Virus record (IMG/VR): IMGVR_UViG_3300037840_000278
Location: 1 to 38,228 of that record
DNA from: a virus
Reading direction: 5' to 3' (one strand)
DNA length: 38,228 nt
Shown here: piece by piece, positions 3,173 to 38,228 of the stretch
Position numbering within the stretch: the first letter of the stretch is position 1
How the letters are laid out: every line of letters starts with the position of its first letter
The notes under the pieces: model-generated
Told to the model about the DNA's origin: nothing
The model's input: the letters and a program-made list of their open reading frames with translations, nothing else
The model's database searches: none
Position numbers and translations under genes: made by a program

Positions 3173-4517
3173 TATCGATCTACCGTTCGGTTACACACCT
3201 AGAAAATACCAATTACAGATTCTAAGGGCTCTAGATAAAGGCTGCAAGCGATTAGTTGTGGTCATGCATCGACGAGCGGGGAAGGACCTTACGGTTTGGA
3301 ATTGGTGCATCAAAGAGTATGCCGTAGGGGTGCCGAGCATTGTATGGTACGTGTTTCCCACCTATAGCCAGGCTAAGCGGGTGATCTGGGATGGGATGAC
3401 TAAGGAAGGCAAGCGGTTCCTGGACTACATCCCCAAAGAGCTCATCAAGCAAAAGTATGAAAATGAGCTTAAGATCAAATTCGTCAACGGCTCTATCCTC
3501 CAACTAATAGGCTCAGATAATCTAGACGCTCTAATGGGTTCTGGGCCACGCTGTGTCGTATTTAGCGAGGCTAGCATGCACGATCCTAGGGCATGGGATC
3601 TGATCAGACCAATGCTTACTGAGACCAATGGAACGGCCATCTTCATCTCGACGCCTCGCGGTAAGAACTGGTTCTATGATCTGTTTTGCTTAGCTGAGAA
3701 AACGCAGGGAATGCAGGCTATCCGCCTCTCTGTCGCGGAGACTGGAGCCATATCAGAAGAAGATATCGAGCAAGAGCGCCGTCAAGGAATGTCCGAGGAG
3801 ATGGTGCAGCAGGAGTTCTATTGCTCCTGGGAAGCTTCCGTCTTAGGAGCCTATTATGCTCGTCTGATGAGCAAGGTGCGCAAAGAGAGCCGCATCCAGA
3901 TTGTGCCATATGATGAAGACCTCCTTGTCTATACGGCCTGGGATCTAGGTTATACCGACACCATGTCGATCATCTTTTTCCAGCTCAGAGGAGAACAGAT
4001 ACGCGTTATCGACTACTACGAAAACCACGGCTACCAGCTCTCACACTACCTCAACATCCTAGCTACCCGTCATTATATATATGGCGAGCACTGGGCACCC
4101 CATGACGGAGCGGCACACGACCGGGCAGGCAATACATTTGTGCAGAAAGCCCGAGAGTATGGCTACGATTTCAACGTTCTTCCCAATAAGTACACCATTC
4201 TAGAGGGCATTGAGAAGGTCAGGGCCATGCTTCCCCGCTGTTATTTCGATGAGGTCAAATGCGATCGACTGATCAAAGCCCTAGAAAATTATCATTCCAA
4301 ATATGATCCCGTTCGGCAATCATACAGTATGGAGCCGGATCACAACTGGGCGAGCCACGGAGCTGATGCATTCCGTTACCTGGCTCTAGCCACTGAAGTA
4401 ATTCGCCAAGGGCGAGGCATGACACCCGAGAGCATTCAAGAGATCAAATGGCGAGCGCTCGCCGAGAGAGATAGAGAGATGACACCCCATTACAAGCAGC
4501 CTCGCTATGGCAGATAG
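3159..4517 (+). CDS. terL: Terminase large subunit (packaging ATPase and nuclease)
   Basis: The protein has 452 residues. It powers DNA entry through the portal and cuts the concatemer. The ATPase domain shows the Walker A variant HRRAGKD (37-43), Walker B RCVVFSE (131-137) with the catalytic Glu at 137, and the coupling motif STPRG (164-168). The RNase H-like nuclease domain has its acidic residues in WDLGYTDT (D262), HDGAAHD (D316) and HGADAFRY (D403). Length and motif order are normal for the family. The ATG lies inside the end of terS, so the two are coupled. The portal gene follows about 700 bases downstream after three small genes. Confidence 0.95.
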   Translation: MRTIDIDLPFGYTPRKYQLQILRALDKGCKRLVVVMHRRAGKDLTVWNWCIKEYAVGVPSIVWYVFPTYSQAKRVIWDGMTKEGKRFLDYIPKELIKQKYENELKIKFVNGSILQLIGSDNLDALMGSGPRCVVFSEASMHDPRAWDLIRPMLTETNGTAIFISTPRGKNWFYDLFCLAEKTQGMQAIRLSVAETGAISEEDIEQERRQGMSEEMVQQEFYCSWEASVLGAYYARLMSKVRKESRIQIVPYDEDLLVYTAWDLGYTDTMSIIFFQLRGEQIRVIDYYENHGYQLSHYLNILATRHYIYGEHWAPHDGAAHDRAGNTFVQKAREYGYDFNVLPNKYTILEGIEKVRAMLPRCYFDEVKCDRLIKALENYHSKYDPVRQSYSMEPDHNWASHGADAFRYLALATEVIRQGRGMTPESIQEIKWRALAERDREMTPHYKQPRYGR

Positions 4518-4701
4518 GTATTGTGCTTGGTGCGATAAACCGGCTAAACCCGATTCGATCTTCTGCGAGCCTCATTCCGGTTTGAAGTCAACCATTGACC
4601 AACAGGAGAAATCAGATGAACCAGAAATCCTCAGATCACGAAGAAATGTTAAGTTCCTCCCCGGTTATCGATTGGAGTACATGCGAATTGACAATCACTG
4701 A
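4507..4701 (+). CDS. Small zinc-finger protein, unknown function
   Basis: The protein has 64 residues. The N-terminal half has C6xxC9 and C20xxH23 (CAWCDKPAKPDSIFCEPH), a single zinc-binding knuckle. The rest is polar and basic. The start overlaps the last codons of terL without a clear Shine-Dalgarno site, so it would rely on coupling. The C-terminal 85 bases overlap the next gene, which has its own strong ribosome site. The zinc motif argues that the N-terminal part is real; the downstream end is less certain. Confidence 0.6.
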   Translation: MADRYCAWCDKPAKPDSIFCEPHSGLKSTIDQQEKSDEPEILRSRRNVKFLPGYRLEYMRIDNH

Positions 4702-4804
4702 AGAAGTTAAATATGTTGGAGAAGGCGAAGATCCAGCAAATGATCCTTACATGATTGCTTATAAAAAAGCCTTAGAATCAATTTATCAGCCTGAACGAAT
4801 TTAA
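4616..4804 (+). CDS. Small acidic protein, unknown function
   Basis: The protein has 62 residues starting at the ATG at 4616, which is preceded by AGGAGAAATC, a strong ribosome site. A longer in-frame start upstream has none. The protein contains SSSPVIDWSTCELTITEE and an acidic loop (GEGEDPANDP), ending in a short helix. It overlaps the zinc-finger gene in another frame. No family recognised. Confidence 0.6.
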   Translation: MNQKSSDHEEMLSSSPVIDWSTCELTITEEVKYVGEGEDPANDPYMIAYKKALESIYQPERI

Positions 4805-4818
4805 TGAAACCGTGACAA

Positions 4819-4824
4819 TATAAT
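4819..4824 (+). promoter_or_regulatory. Possible -10 box (TATAAT)
   Basis: A perfect TATAAT lies in a short AT-rich gap 22 bases before the ATG at 4846. No good -35 box sits 16-18 bases upstream; the nearest candidate is too far. It could be a weak promoter, or simply an AT-rich spacer. Confidence 0.35.
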
Positions 4825-4845
4825 AAAATTAAACCCAAGGAAACC

Positions 4846-5163
4846 ATGAGAAAGCTGATTATTGATTGTGGAGACTATAAATATGCAGTTGATTGCCATT
4901 ATTTCGAAGTGAAAGACGGCATTCTCTATTGCTATGACGAGAATAACTACGCAGTTCACGTCAATTGCATATGGCAATTCTTCAAAGAAGTAAAGAACGA
5001 AGGTTTCAGCCCTCCAACGGAAAATTCATTCTCTGAAGCATATAAACGTATGCTAGATACCTTAAAAGAACGAGAACAAGAAGAATCAGAAGAGAGCGAT
5101 AGCGTCCGTACAACTCGCAATTTGATGGCTTCCCTCAAAGACTATTACGAGGCGAATTCGTAA
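4846..5163 (+). CDS. Unknown protein, 105 residues
   Basis: The ATG has AAGGAAA just upstream. The N-terminal half looks like a small beta fold with aromatic and Cys residues (DCGDYKYAVDCHYF, then GILYCYDENNYAVHVNCIW). The C-terminal half is acidic and helical (KEREQEESEESDS), probably extended. The gene sits between the terminase and the portal, with a small hairpin-forming gap before the portal. No family recognised and no role can be assigned. Confidence 0.7.
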   Translation: MRKLIIDCGDYKYAVDCHYFEVKDGILYCYDENNYAVHVNCIWQFFKEVKNEGFSPPTENSFSEAYKRMLDTLKEREQEESEESDSVRTTRNLMASLKDYYEANS

Positions 5164-7578: not shown

Positions 7579-7784
7579 AAAAGGGCTATAAACTCAAATT
7601 GGAGCGTGTAGTCGGTCGAAAGCCGCCTATCCGTAAGGCTGCCAAGATCAGAAGAGCTGAGAAGAAGGACGACCCTATCTCAGCTCAAGAGACATTCGCC
7701 TACAATCGCATGAAAGATGAGCCAGAAGCACCGCGCTATAAAACAATGAACATGAAACGAATGAGAACTTCTCGAGGCGTATGA
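7575..7784 (+). CDS. Small Lys/Arg-rich protein
   Basis: The protein has 69 residues and starts at a GTG that overlaps the previous stop (GTGA). It is very basic (KPPIRKAAKIRRAEKKDD), ending MKRMRTSRGV. A related phrase, KPIRKAEKIL, recurs in the gene at 7894-8055, so the two may be diverged duplicates. Such proteins near the portal could be minor virion or DNA-associated proteins. Function is unknown. Confidence 0.65.
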   Translation: MKKGYKLKLERVVGRKPPIRKAAKIRRAEKKDDPISAQETFAYNRMKDEPEAPRYKTMNMKRMRTSRGV

Positions 7785-7888
7785 AACACAAGAAAGTCAA
7801 AGCTAAAAAAGTAGCTGCAAAAATGATGGAGCATCACGAAGAGAAAATGATGCCCCATAAAAAAATGAAGCATCATAAAAAGAAGTAG
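7781..7888 (+). CDS. Tiny Lys/His/Met-rich peptide, 35 residues
   Basis: The ATG overlaps the previous stop (ATGA). The peptide begins MKHKKVKAKKVAAK, continues MMEHHEEKMMPHKK and ends MKHHKKK. Nearly every residue is Lys, His, Met or Glu. The low complexity is striking, and the spacing and coupling fit the neighbouring genes. It could bind nucleic acid or metal, but this is inference. Confidence 0.6.
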   Translation: MKHKKVKAKKVAAKMMEHHEEKMMPHKKMKHHKKK

Positions 7889-7893
7889 GCTTT

Positions 7894-8055
7894 GTGGACA
7901 AAAAAATGCGTCGCCAGGTCACGAAGCCTATCCGTAAGGCTGAGAAGATCCTGAAAAAAGCTGAAAAGTCCAATATGAAGCTCGCTAACTATGATGAGCG
8001 TGTGCGTGATCCTGAGATCAGGAAACTGCATAAGCTTGAGAAAAAGCGTCGCTAG
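7894..8055 (+). CDS. Small basic helical protein, 53 residues
   Basis: It starts at a GTG at 7894 with AGG a few bases upstream; an ATG four codons later is the alternative. The sequence is mainly one long charged helix (KPIRKAEKILKKAEKSNMKL, then VRDPEIRKLHKLEKKRR). It shares PIRKAxKI with the gene at 7575-7784. It could bind DNA or RNA; no family is recognised. Confidence 0.6.
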   Translation: MDKKMRRQVTKPIRKAEKILKKAEKSNMKLANYDERVRDPEIRKLHKLEKKRR

Positions 8056-34975: not shown

Positions 34976-35067
34976 CACTTATCAGTGCTCAACCATTTAT
35001 GCATTTTTAATATTCCCAAGATAAAGAATAGCAGGGCCATGATGACCGCTAAACCTTTACCCATCAT
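34975..35067 (-). CDS. Tiny membrane peptide, 30 residues
   Basis: The frame reads MMGKGLAVIMALLFFILGIL then KMHKWLSTDK, one membrane helix with a short basic tail. Its start overlaps the end of the preceding gene, without a strong ribosome site, so coupling is needed. The stop codon lies at the edge of the shared terminator. Function could be membrane-related (holin-like), but it is too short to classify. Confidence 0.5.
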   Translation of the reverse strand: MMGKGLAVIMALLFFILGILKMHKWLSTDK

Positions 35068-35287
35068 TATCAGAATATGACTCATACAGATGCGCTCCAA
35101 GGGTTCTCATATTTTCCATCCAATGGCATTCCTTCAAATGCAGCTTCATGTGAAACTTCCAAGCAGCTATAAGACAAGCGCCATATGCAATTTGATGCAT
35201 GTAGTTTTGCTCTAAAAACGAATCGATGATCTTATCGGAAAGATCCCAGCAGAGAAGCATTTCTTCTTCATCCAGCTGTCTGATCAT
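35057..35287 (-). CDS. Unknown protein, 76 residues
   Basis: Helical, with an acidic start (MIRQLDEEEMLLCWDLSDKI) and aromatic, His-rich middle (AWKFHMKLHLKECHWMENMR). The ATG overlaps the upstream stop (ATGA). No family recognised. It is in a leftward set of four small genes lying between two rightward blocks. Confidence 0.65.
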   Translation of the reverse strand: MIRQLDEEEMLLCWDLSDKIIDSFLEQNYMHQIAYGACLIAAWKFHMKLHLKECHWMENMRTLGAHLYESYSDNDG

Positions 35288-35565
35288 GAGAACTCCGTGT
35301 GAGCCTTAGTTACCATTTCTAATACCTTATGCATCACCTCGGCTCCTAAAATCAGGTAAATCGAGTGCAGTAGCTCAGGGAAGGTAGTTAGATTAGTTTT
35401 GTAGATGCCCCACTCTTCGAGCTTTTGCACGATCAACGGTCCTAAGCCAAATGCCGGGGCAAGCCTTTTCATCGCATCCTGATCGATTGCAGGTATATTT
35501 GCGAGCAATCGGTTCATGGAGTCAGCTATCGGTATGTATTTGCGTTCTGTAGCTTCAATTATCAT
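35284..35565 (-). CDS. Unknown helical protein, 93 residues
   Basis: I use the ATG at 35565 (MIIEATERKYIPIADSMNRL), with GGAG five bases upstream; a GTG two codons earlier overlaps that site. The protein is helical and moderately hydrophobic (FPELLHSIYLILGAEVMHKV). There are no metal or catalytic motifs. Coupled to both neighbours. Confidence 0.65.
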   Translation of the reverse strand: MIIEATERKYIPIADSMNRLLANIPAIDQDAMKRLAPAFGLGPLIVQKLEEWGIYKTNLTTFPELLHSIYLILGAEVMHKVLEMVTKAHTEFS

Positions 35566-35567
35566 GA

Positions 35568-35882
35568 TCACTCCACGTTAATTTGGGCAGCTTGCTTCGA
35601 GGCTGCATGTCGATCTAATTGGACTATAATATCCTTTGGAAACTCCATCTCGTCCATCCAGTGAGTGACATTAACTGCAAGGAACCCATTTTGTTCTTCA
35701 TAGCGCTTTTGTAGAGAGATCGATTTTTTCGATATAGTCGCATCGTCGAGAAACCAAGTTACTTGCCAGCTCTCTTGCAGTTTCTTCCGAATGTTGTCGC
35801 TGTGATCGGTTATGACTTTGACTAGAACCAGGTACGGCCCTGAGAAAACCGGCTTGCGGTCTTTGATGTTTACCCATTTCAT
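35568..35882 (-). CDS. DUF551-like protein, longer version
   Basis: From the ATG at 35882 it reads MKWVNIKDRKPVFSGPYLVL, and later VTHWMDEMEFP. Its first and last motifs match DUF551 as in 1614-1799, with about 40 extra residues between (containing WQVTWFLDDATISKKSISLQ). AAGGAG is seven bases before this ATG; an upstream ATG at 35903 is less well placed. First gene of its small leftward operon. Unknown role. Confidence 0.8.
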   Translation of the reverse strand: MKWVNIKDRKPVFSGPYLVLVKVITDHSDNIRKKLQESWQVTWFLDDATISKKSISLQKRYEEQNGFLAVNVTHWMDEMEFPKDIIVQLDRHAASKQAAQINVE

Positions 35883-35947
35883 TTTGAACTCCTTTAAATC
35901 CATCCTCTGAAAAGGAATAAATCGAGGGTGTGCTTGAAAATAAAATA

Positions 35948-35991: not shown

Positions 35992-36021
35992 AAAAAAGGA
36001 CCCCAGTTTTTAGGCTGGGGT
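35992..36021 (-). terminator. Leftward terminator with no leftward gene upstream
   Basis: ACCCCAG (36000-36006) pairs with CTGGGGT (36015-36021). Read leftward, the stem is followed by TCC and six T (complement of A at 35992-35997). Rightward there is no T run. Genes on its right are all rightward, so it must end a non-coding leftward transcript or block readthrough into the DUF551-like operon. Confidence 0.8.
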
Positions 36022-36116
36022 TAAGTAGAACCACAAGAGGCGGAATACTCTTGCGTTGCATTTCGCATCATATCAAATGATCAGATTTAGACGCAAGGGG
36101 CGCCTCTTCCAACAAT
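35992..36116 (-). ncRNA. Candidate antisense regulatory RNA to replication leader
   Basis: Read leftward from about 36116, the sequence folds as AAGAGGCG/CGCCTCTT (36101-36108 with 36035-36042). Inside it is CTTGCGT/ACGCAAG (36091-36097 with 36050-36056), and within that a 5-bp hairpin ATCAT/ATGAT (36067-36071, 36077-36081). Eighteen bases after the outer stem comes a strong terminator with six T. No leftward gene lies upstream, so the terminator needs another purpose. A weak promoter (TTGACT at 36148-36153, CATAGT at 36123-36128) would start it at the outer stem. The RNA would be antisense to the 36126 gene's leader and reach near its ribosome site. Confidence 0.5.
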
Positions 36117-36125
36117 GGAGAGACT

Positions 36126-36407
36126 ATGCGTTTTATCATTCCACCTAAGTCAAAGTTGCCGGTTTGGGATTCTAAGCTTTCCTTGGCCGCTTTAGGCCTA
36201 TGGTACAAAGTTAAAATCTATCCAAAAGACATCAGCTTAGATCAGATCGCTAAGTTATCGGGTATTCGGAAGTCAACTTTAGAGAGGCTGGTCAAAGAGC
36301 TTGTCGATCGAGGTTATGCTAAGATCGTCGAGCAGGTTTATGACGGAGATTTTACAGATATATATTTAGAAGTATTCAACGAGAAAAAACTTAATTCGGA
36401 GAAGTGA
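36126..36407 (+). CDS. Winged-helix DNA-binding protein, replication-type
   Basis: The protein has 93 residues with GGAGAG before the ATG. It reads LSLAALGLWYKVKIYPKDIS, then LDQIAKLSGIRKSTLERLVK and ELVDRGYAKI. This is a winged helix of the type at the front of plasmid and phage replication initiators (LSxxAxGLWxxLxxxP...LxxxxxxSxxTxxRxxxELxxxGY). It is clearly related to the first 100 residues of the next gene, so the two are tandem paralogues. It may control the larger protein or the origin. Confidence 0.75.
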   Translation: MRFIIPPKSKLPVWDSKLSLAALGLWYKVKIYPKDISLDQIAKLSGIRKSTLERLVKELVDRGYAKIVEQVYDGDFTDIYLEVFNEKKLNSEK

Positions 36408-36411
36408 AACT

Positions 36412-37374
36412 ATGCCAATTATCAGAACATTGCATAACAAAGAAAATCCATATGTACAAATCAATAAGAAAGCATTATGGGATTCAGATTTATCATTTGA
36501 AGCTAAGGGTCTTTGGGCGCAATTATTATCACGTCCGAATAATTGGACGGTAAGCGTTTCGGAATTATGCAAAGCATGCAAATGTAGTGACAAACCAATT
36601 TATAGAATTTTTAAGGAGTTGATAGAAAAAGGGTATGCACACCGGAGGCAGTTAAACGTAAAGGGAAAATTTCAATCGTTCGAGATGTATGTATTTGAGT
36701 TTAAAGTTACACCGGAAGAGATTAAAGAAATGTTTGCCGATATTAAAGAAATTTTACCGCTTCCCCCAAACCCGGGAAGCGGATATGGCTACACTAATAA
36801 GACTAATACTACTAAGACTCCCCCACCCTCTTCGTTCCGTTCTTCTTCTTCCGGCCACTTCGTGTGCGAAGAATCATCACTTCACTCAGACAGGGTGGCC
36901 CCTCAAGGGGCGCCCGGGGCGAGCCCGGGTGTGAGCGCGGCGGAAGAATCTTCACTTCGCTCAAAGGGAAAAGAGAAGGGGAGTTATGGCGAACATGGTT
37001 TCGTGCGGCTCAGTCTCGAAGAGTACGCTAAAGCTATCGCGAAATATGGTGCCAAAGCCGTGGAGGAAGAGATTGAGTCTTTGGATCTGTGGCTAGGAAG
37101 AGGAAAGGCCAAAGGCGAACGCAATCACTATCTTACTTTGCTCACTTTTCTGAGGAAGAGGCCTCAAGATGCATGCCATGAAATGGTTGAGGAGAAGAAT
37201 CGAGCTCTAGCGAGGTATGTTAAGGATTTTCTAGGGGAAGCTGGCAAGGGAATTAGGTTTTTCAAAGATGCAATGTATAGTGCAGAAAGAGGAGATTCGC
37301 TAAAACTCAATCTTCCCAATGAGACATTCAAGGAAATACTTTTCAAATGGTATGAAATTAAGGAAACAACATGA
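36412..37374 (+). CDS. Probable replication initiator / replisome organiser
   Basis: The protein has 320 residues. The N-terminal winged helix spans 1-105 (DSDLSFEAKGLWAQLLSRPN, then CSDKPIYRIFKELIEKGYAH). A low-complexity linker at 120-190 is rich in Ser, Pro and Gly. The C-terminal domain, 195-255 (SLEEYAKAIAKYGAKAVEEE, then GERNHYLTLLTFLRKRP), matches a domain common at the end of phage replication proteins (EExxxxxxxYGxxxVxxxIxxL...NHxxxxxxFxRK). It probably binds an origin and loads the replisome. Its linker DNA contains repeats (see separate entry). Confidence 0.75.
   Translation: MPIIRTLHNKENPYVQINKKALWDSDLSFEAKGLWAQLLSRPNNWTVSVSELCKACKCSDKPIYRIFKELIEKGYAHRRQLNVKGKFQSFEMYVFEFKVTPEEIKEMFADIKEILPLPPNPGSGYGYTNKTNTTKTPPPSSFRSSSSGHFVCEESSLHSDRVAPQGAPGASPGVSAAEESSLRSKGKEKGSYGEHGFVRLSLEEYAKAIAKYGAKAVEEEIESLDLWLGRGKAKGERNHYLTLLTFLRKRPQDACHEMVEEKNRALARYVKDFLGEAGKGIRFFKDAMYSAERGDSLKLNLPNETFKEILFKWYEIKETT
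36868..36963 (+). repeat. Direct repeats and GC palindromes in initiator gene (candidate origin)
   Basis: A 21-base direct repeat occurs at 36868-36888 and 36943-36963 with 19 of 21 identical (GAAGAATC-N-TCACTTC-N-CTCA), coding EESSLHS and EESSLRS. Between them lie CCCC-TCAA-GGGG and two CCCGGG palindromes (36913-36918, 36924-36929). CTTCG-TGTG-CGAAG overlaps the first repeat. The composition is far more GC-rich than the surroundings. It resembles the iterons in the linker of the lambda O gene. Confidence 0.55.
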
Positions 37375-37853
37375 GACTTGAAAGAATTAACTCAGAGAAG
37401 CCTATCAAAGTAGACGAAAAACACATAGCCAACAACCGCTCATTCACTGAGCGGTACTTAGCAGCCTACGACTTTCTGCCTCAATGGTTTAAGGGAGATT
37501 GGCTTATAAGACCATGCTACACAATGCAATCGCTCGTGGTCTTTTTCTCATGGGAAGAGCTTGGGAAGCTATTGCAAAACCCCATCTCGTTTTGTGAGGC
37601 TTGCGATTGGCTCCAACATGAGCTAAAATTACAAGTAGCCAAGATGGAAAGTTTCAAGCTTCTTGCAAGGAAGCCGATATCTGCTTCCTCGAAAGCCCGA
37701 CCGAGCGGAGCGAGTGCAACAGGGAGCGGAGCGACCGTTCTTAGTCAAGCGAATAGCGCGCCGCCGCCCCCGCCGCGAAAAGAGTCTGAGGATTCAACTC
37801 AAAATAGGCCTCAGGCTTCATTAGAAGGCTTACAAACGCTTATCGCATGGTGA
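37371..37853 (+). CDS. Unknown protein next to initiator, 160 residues
   Basis: The ATG overlaps the initiator stop (ATGA). The first 100 residues form a compact domain with aromatics (RYLAAYDFLPQWFKGDWLIR, then LGKLLQNPISFCEACDWLQH). The tail from about 104 is a linker rich in Ser, Ala and Pro (SKARPSGASATGSGAT, then APPPPPRKESED) coded by GC-rich repeats. It could be a helicase-loader-like partner, by place only. No Walker motif is present, so it is not a DnaC-type ATPase. Confidence 0.65.
   Translation: MRLERINSEKPIKVDEKHIANNRSFTERYLAAYDFLPQWFKGDWLIRPCYTMQSLVVFFSWEELGKLLQNPISFCEACDWLQHELKLQVAKMESFKLLARKPISASSKARPSGASATGSGATVLSQANSAPPPPPRKESEDSTQNRPQASLEGLQTLIAW
37703..37734 (+). repeat. 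Short GC repeat in 37371 gene
   Basis: GAGCGGAGCGA occurs at 37703-37713 and 37724-37734, exactly 21 bases apart. A reverse-complement version with two mismatches, TCGTTCCGTTC, lies in the initiator gene at 36832-36842. The 21-base spacing keeps the reading frame and equals about two helical turns. Confidence 0.7.
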
Positions 37854-37893: not shown

Positions 37894-37911
37894 ACGCAAA
37901 TTGAGGGCATT

Positions 37912-38228
37912 TTGAGCGATTTGCCTATACAAGAGTTTTACGACAACTTTGACCTCAACCGGGCGCATTACCAGGCCAGGATGATGCTGGTCTGGTACGA
38001 CTGTAACAAACTTTATATAAATAAAGTGCATGACTATTTAATATTTATTAAGCGAAATGATATAAGATATTGTTTCGCAATTTATTTGGGTCTAGAAAAG
38101 GATGAGTTTAACAATCAGTTGGAATGTTTGTTATCTCACTTAAAGTTTTTAAAACTCATGGAGGAAAGAAATTGGATATTACCGAAACAGACTCCTTCGA
38201 CGTCACAAGCTGGTCAGAGCTGTGGGAC
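37912..38228 (+). CDS. Unknown protein, cut by window end
   Basis: The frame is open from a TTG at 37912 to the end (105 codons). GAGGG lies four bases before the TTG, and an in-frame TAA sits 18 bases upstream, so this is the likely start. The sequence is SDLPIQEFYDNFDLN, then RMMLVWYDCNKLYINKVHDY and CFAIYLGLEKDEFNNQLECL. It is aromatic, helical and AT-rich in codon use from about 38015 on. The region around LECLLSHLKFLKLMEERNWI could be a small winged helix. No family recognised. Confidence 0.6.
   Translation, partial: MSDLPIQEFYDNFDLNRAHYQARMMLVWYDCNKLYINKVHDYLIFIKRNDIRYCFAIYLGLEKDEFNNQLECLLSHLKFLKLMEERNWILPKQTPSTSQAGQSCG

Follow-up and report, generated by a model that had tools for sequence, protein, structure and literature searches.

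We propose that the replication operon of an uncultured phage is probably under negative control of a plasmid-type countertranscribed RNA, as judged from its sequence. The analysed stretch, further called the window, is the whole IMG/VR record IMGVR_UViG_3300037840_000278 of 38,228 bp. A promoter-like site, a stretch of about 69 nt with two predicted hairpins and a terminator were noticed there, all complementary to the leader of an operon encoding a small winged-helix (wHTH) protein and a replication initiator, and we infer that the predicted antisense RNA would be transcribed and would pair with this leader. An earlier note on this DNA had suggested a plasmid-like countertranscribed RNA at the replication leader; comparative enrichment in related phages supports the core of that idea, while the RNA length, the gene lying opposite and the best known parallel had to be revised. 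The region is organized as follows (positions are those of the window):

Between 35903 (leftward gene) and 36126 (rightward gene): intergenic gap of 222 bp separating divergent genes
35057-35903, minus strand: divergent small leftward genes, the first of them DUF551-like
35992-36021, minus strand: intrinsic terminator, predicted 3' end of the antisense RNA and also the first hairpin of the rightward leader
36035-36108, plus strand: long-range nested stem of the rightward leader, minimum free energy (MFE) about -30
36034-36053, plus strand: local hairpin CAAGAG...CTCTTG, which competes with the long stem (the two are mutually exclusive)
36126-36407, plus strand: gene of a 93-aa winged-helix protein, first in the operon
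36412-37374, plus strand: gene of a 320-aa phage replication initiator or DnaD-like helicase loader with N-terminal HTH_36 (PF13730)

The initiator gene begins 4 nt after the stop codon of the 93-aa winged-helix gene, the product of which is a divergent paralogue of the initiator's N-terminal domain. The initiator itself matches Pfam HTH_36 (E 9e-11), resembles PHROG replication-initiation and DnaD-like families and gave no Pfam match to a RepA_N domain. Its AlphaFold model is confident for the N-terminal winged helix only, and Foldseek matches of this model include primosomal DnaB as well as, weakly (E 0.04-0.08), 4pql, 4pt7 and 5kbj; these three entries carry initiator or Rep descriptions, and we take them to be RepA_N-type Rep domains. 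Placing the RNA opposite a replication gene leader, as was done earlier, fits the operon, but the gene directly opposite is the small winged-helix paralogue and the initiator comes second. Tandem duplication of the initiator domain recurs, as it is seen in the window and in another phage (locus L069, 2017-4398, minus strand), where an array of consecutive small winged-helix/initiator-like genes lies beside an IS200/IS605-type insertion; an antisense hairpin upstream of a wHTH gene in L069 adjoins that insertion and was set aside. GC-rich, strongly structured stretches were also found at 36800-36990, within the initiator's linker, and at 37680-37780, in the C-terminal part of the gene after it; both resemble repeats inserted where the protein is disordered. 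An ORF runs in frame across the joined record ends (about 37911-38228 to 1-187), which suggests a possibly complete, circularly permuted genome.

The terminator hairpin (36000-36021, minus strand) has a 7-bp GC-rich stem, ACCCCAG-CCTAAAAA-CTGGGGT, followed by CC and six T (35992-35997), with an energy of about -11.5 kcal/mol, and the site read from 36021 to 35992 ranks among the window's better leftward terminator-like sites. It is not preceded by any credible leftward gene that would end there; 35903, 35571 and 35287, which do run leftward, all begin beyond it. The hairpin and tail of a leftward terminator with six T and no leftward gene to serve, as claimed before, are therefore confirmed; such a terminator would shield the leftward genes 35903 to 35057 from the antisense transcript. 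Another strong leftward terminator-like hairpin, at 7784-7894 inside the rightward structural operon, overlaps a coding repeat rich in Lys, His and Met, of which it is probably a by-product. The nested inverted repeat described earlier is likewise present, with outer 8-bp arms AAGAGGCG (36035-36042) and CGCCTCTT (36101-36108) and inner 7-bp arms CTTGCGT (36050-36056) and ACGCAAG (36091-36097); shuffling the window 100 times never produced the combined pattern. In folding, both strands of the region beat all 200 shuffles (minus -39.4, z -3.8; plus -47.8, z -4.4), placing the plus strand among the best 0.7% of stretches in the window and the minus strand among the best 2.5%. The nested stem alone gives -29.8 on the plus and -25.5 on the minus strand, the plus-strand fold being deeper because several stem extensions are G-U pairs on that strand. 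Complementary strands fold alike, hence a structured leader is by itself enough to make its antisense look structured too. Rfam covariance models found nothing above gathering score in the region.

Leftward promoters were sought by a position-weight scan with a sigma-70-like model, which together with folding gave the following candidates:

36067-36096, minus strand: best leftward promoter, TTGCGT-18-TATGAT with a TGn extended -10, score 9.0
36123-36153, minus strand: weaker leftward promoter, TTGACT-19-CATAGT, score 8.5 (about one per 770 positions)
35992-36060, minus strand: predicted countertranscribed RNA of about 69 nt, MFE -22.7

Neither promoter candidate is strong or significant alone. 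The better one sits inside the inverted repeat, has a score within the top 0.09% of window positions and predicts a start near 36060; relative to the ATG, these sequence features place the terminator at -126 to -105 and the promoter -10 at -54. The resulting RNA of about 69 nt is predicted to fold into a stem-loop, a spacer of about 10 nt and the terminator stem-loop, while the weaker promoter would yield an RNA of about 124 nt spanning the whole nested repeat. The weak promoter previously placed before the outer stem thus exists, but a better one lies within the repeat, and the RNA of about 125 bases expected from it is possible, though about 69 nt is more likely. The same type of scan identified no convincing rightward promoter in the window. 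Transcription attenuation of the rightward leader was considered and rejected, as no sense terminator with dG of -11 or below occurs in the 250 nt before 36126.

Close relatives were sought by rep, wHTH, portal, terminase and ERF protein and by the stem pattern, and none was found in IMG/VR, GTDB species genomes or GenBank phages; base-pair covariation was therefore not countable, and anatomy was compared across initiator homologues instead, gathered solely through the initiator protein. The detector, an antisense terminator with dG of -11 or below and at least six T in nine, was settled on a discovery set that was also inspected by eye. In that set 5 of 10 leaders had an antisense terminator, compared with 16 of 499 control leaders taken from other phage genes (p=1.6e-5); antisense promoter scores were raised (p about 2e-4 to 5e-4) and several leaders were unusually structured. 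The unchanged detector was then applied to 80 newly fetched loci, which reduced to 34 non-redundant leaders. In this independent set 12 leaders carried an antisense terminator, against the same 16/499 in controls (p=9e-9), and 4 a sense-strand one; plus-strand structure was also stronger (z -2.8 against -0.6 in controls, p=1e-8) and antisense promoters were enriched (p=1e-5, or 5e-4 once corrected by shuffling). About two thirds of the related leaders have no detectable antisense terminator. The lambda OOP terminator, which lies 80 nt before O, served as positive control and was recovered.

The 499-leader control was judged too easy, so leaders from the same contigs were added as a stricter one. 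Pooling every other same-contig leader, those immediately before rep included, weakens the contrast to p of about 0.007, and most of the control matches precede same-strand genes just before rep. Splitting the same-contig leaders at 1.25 kb, a division made post hoc after inspecting the matches, gives 12/34 for rep, 10/30 for same-strand genes just upstream of rep and 4/71 elsewhere (p=1.9e-4); the split is biologically sensible because upstream leaders may belong to the same operon, as in the window. Antisense terminators in leaders of small early genes upstream of rep were observed at about 960-980 nt in L119, L120 and L128 and nearer to rep in L125, L132, L134, L141, L165 and L167, which would allow two or more antisense RNAs in a single phage.

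Among the relatives with a leftward terminator, the best in-leader promoter lies 48-97 nt before the start codon in L003, L106, L108, L110, L115, L116, L119, L128, L131, L145, L161 and L180, and near the start codon, which would give a longer RNA, in L113, L137, L139 and L179. L113 is the closest homologue (63% identity in the N-terminal domain) and shows the order leftward terminator, outer stem GGAGCGCCAG/CTGGCGCTCC, Shine-Dalgarno sequence (SD) and ATG. By eye, L116 shows a long-range stem of 18 bp and a local hairpin that competes with it; in L145 the SD, GGAGAAAA, is matched by the 3' arm of a long stem, GGUUUUCUCC. The related leader sequences are largely unlike one another; among all leaders a few close pairs align, and within the L119-L128 group the alignment consists of fragments only, too few for pair counts. 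Loss of the hairpins with retention of the protein had been named in the earlier note as speaking against such an RNA, and what we see lies in between: the sequence is not conserved, but the anatomy often is. From these predictions the antisense terminator and promoter anatomy is common but not universal in leaders of homologous phage initiators. Plasmid relatives of the initiator were considered as comparators, but most of them are located inside operons. Upstream of the phage initiator in L001 (the same place as L105), a structured leader of about 230 nt occurs as two tandem copies (4466-4720 and 4770-5010) with no Rfam match; one copy precedes a small ORF, and the copies differ by paired changes in both hairpins, e.g. 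TAGTATA/TATACTA versus GAGTATA/TATACTC.

These comparisons bear on three other explanations of the locus. The leftward promoter and terminator could serve the genes 35903 to 35057 as an attenuator or as a regulated leader, in the manner of lambda PR'-tR' or of an antitermination site. Past the terminator there is indeed a leftward gene in the window and in L003, L106, L110, L113, L145 and L161, and in L003 and L110 it is the portal gene. The leftward gene varies among the relatives while the initiator is common to them, and in 9 of 12 replication loci the upstream neighbour points in the same direction as rep, leaving no adjacent leftward gene; because the leftward gene is not conserved, this explanation is disfavoured and we hold it to be unlikely. 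The inverted repeats might instead be DNA sites, either winged-helix operators or part of a replication origin, with RNA folding as a by-product: palindromes beside wHTH genes are typical of such sites, both window strands fold well, and plus and minus z-scores are similar across relatives. This would leave the strand-specific terminator (the 12 antisense against 4 sense) and the antisense promoter unexplained. In the window the plus strand pairs better than the minus strand through G-U pairs. We rate this reading as slightly less likely than the other two. Finally, the rightward leader could be a structured 5' UTR serving translation control, mRNA stability or sensing, its terminator merely insulating the divergent genes. 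The deeper plus-strand structure, the SD adjoining the long stem and the existence of related leaders that are structured without an antisense terminator all agree with this, whereas antisense promoters are enriched besides terminators, and terminators are also present where no adjacent leftward gene needs insulation; we consider it improbable.

If a countertranscribed RNA is indeed made, two further elements of the leader suggest how it could act:

36104-36122, plus strand: Shine-Dalgarno GGAGAG (36117-36122) and anti-SD CUCUUCC (36104-36110), the latter overlapping the 3' arm of the long stem

The antisense RNA would occupy the 5' arm (AAGAGGCG...) of the long-range stem, and the freed 3' arm, CGCCUCUUC, could then pair with the SD GGAGAG and hide the ribosome-binding site. 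The wHTH gene would be translated less, and the initiator, 4 nt downstream, would be reduced by coupling. With rising phage copy number there would be more antisense RNA, and the initiation of replication may thereby be slowed or timed as in plasmids. If the leader is folded as far as 36130, its SD is 52% unpaired in the free state and 2% with 35992-36061 blocked; once coding sequence is added, the SD of the window is mostly paired in both states and the contrast between blocked and free is gone. Over the whole set of leaders, blocking the upstream part leaves the SD less accessible than in controls (p=1e-4), while accessibility of free leaders is no different; a direct switch score gives p=0.03 overall and is not significant in the discovery set. 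Hiding of the SD is therefore a plausible step, weakly suggested by these folds.

Earlier, R1, ColE1 and pT181 had been offered as plasmid parallels; the likeness to plasmids is kept, but the best parallel is RNAI of pSK41 rather than ColE1. pSK41 RNAI is about 83 nt long, has two stem-loops and binds the rep leader about 100 nt upstream, where it is proposed to induce a stem-loop that hides the ribosome-binding site (PMC5703833). Our predicted RNA of about 69 nt is similar in size, also has two stem-loops, here with a short spacer, and its promoter and terminator likewise lie opposite a rep-operon leader, about 100 nt before the first start codon. In contrast, pSK41 is a staphylococcal multiresistance plasmid with a RepA_N initiator, while the phage initiator is of the HTH_36 type and is preceded by a small wHTH gene; the two are likened by layout. 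A link is provided by pPR9, in which the domain under a pSK41-type control region is an HTH_36 one with relatives among phage replication proteins (PMC5703833). This pPR9/pUSA03-type hybrid initiator resembles our case in having its HTH_36 N-terminal domain downstream of an antisense-controlled rep leader, but it is a plasmid that carries the pSK41 control region, whereas here the control region would be in a phage. We regard pSK41 RNAI as the closest working parallel and claim no family membership.

Antisense RNAs also act over the rep leaders of pT181 (RNAI) and R1 (CopA/CopT); pT181 further shares mutually exclusive leader hairpins, and in R1 the small upstream ORF tap lies close to the initiator gene, as at this locus. 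The initiators of both plasmids are unrelated to the phage HTH_36 initiator, and pT181 works by transcription termination, unlike this leader, which is without a rightward terminator (found in 4/34 relatives). In position, the closest phage parallel is lambda OOP (pO to tO), which is likewise short, leftward and terminated and is encoded immediately before a phage replication gene. OOP has cII as its antisense target and leaves O-P mRNA stability unaffected (PMC3985674). Here there is no cII-like gene on the opposite side, the divergent neighbour is DUF551-like, and the leader of the replication operon itself would be targeted. A part for non-coding RNA in replication is also met in parABS mycobacteriophages lacking repA, which have RNA-based origins with RNA implicated in initiation itself (PMC7157519).

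In the open-access literature searched, of which coverage was incomplete, no report was found of an antisense RNA covering the leader of an HTH_36 phage initiator gene. To our knowledge, restraint of phage replication initiation after infection has been little studied beyond a few models such as lambda. A plasmid-like countertranscribed RNA is probably recurrent, yet not universal, in these phage replication operons. More tentatively, and with somewhat less than even confidence, we suggest that such RNAs are a common and fast-diverging control module of HTH_36/DnaD-type phage replication operons, setting both the timing and the copy number of phage genomes and possibly their incompatibility. 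If true, an antisense brake would act on a whole class of phage initiators, linking phage and plasmid replication control; the structured leaders at phage initiator genes would be explained; and RNA-based incompatibility between co-infecting phages would be predicted, as with plasmid antisense RNAs.
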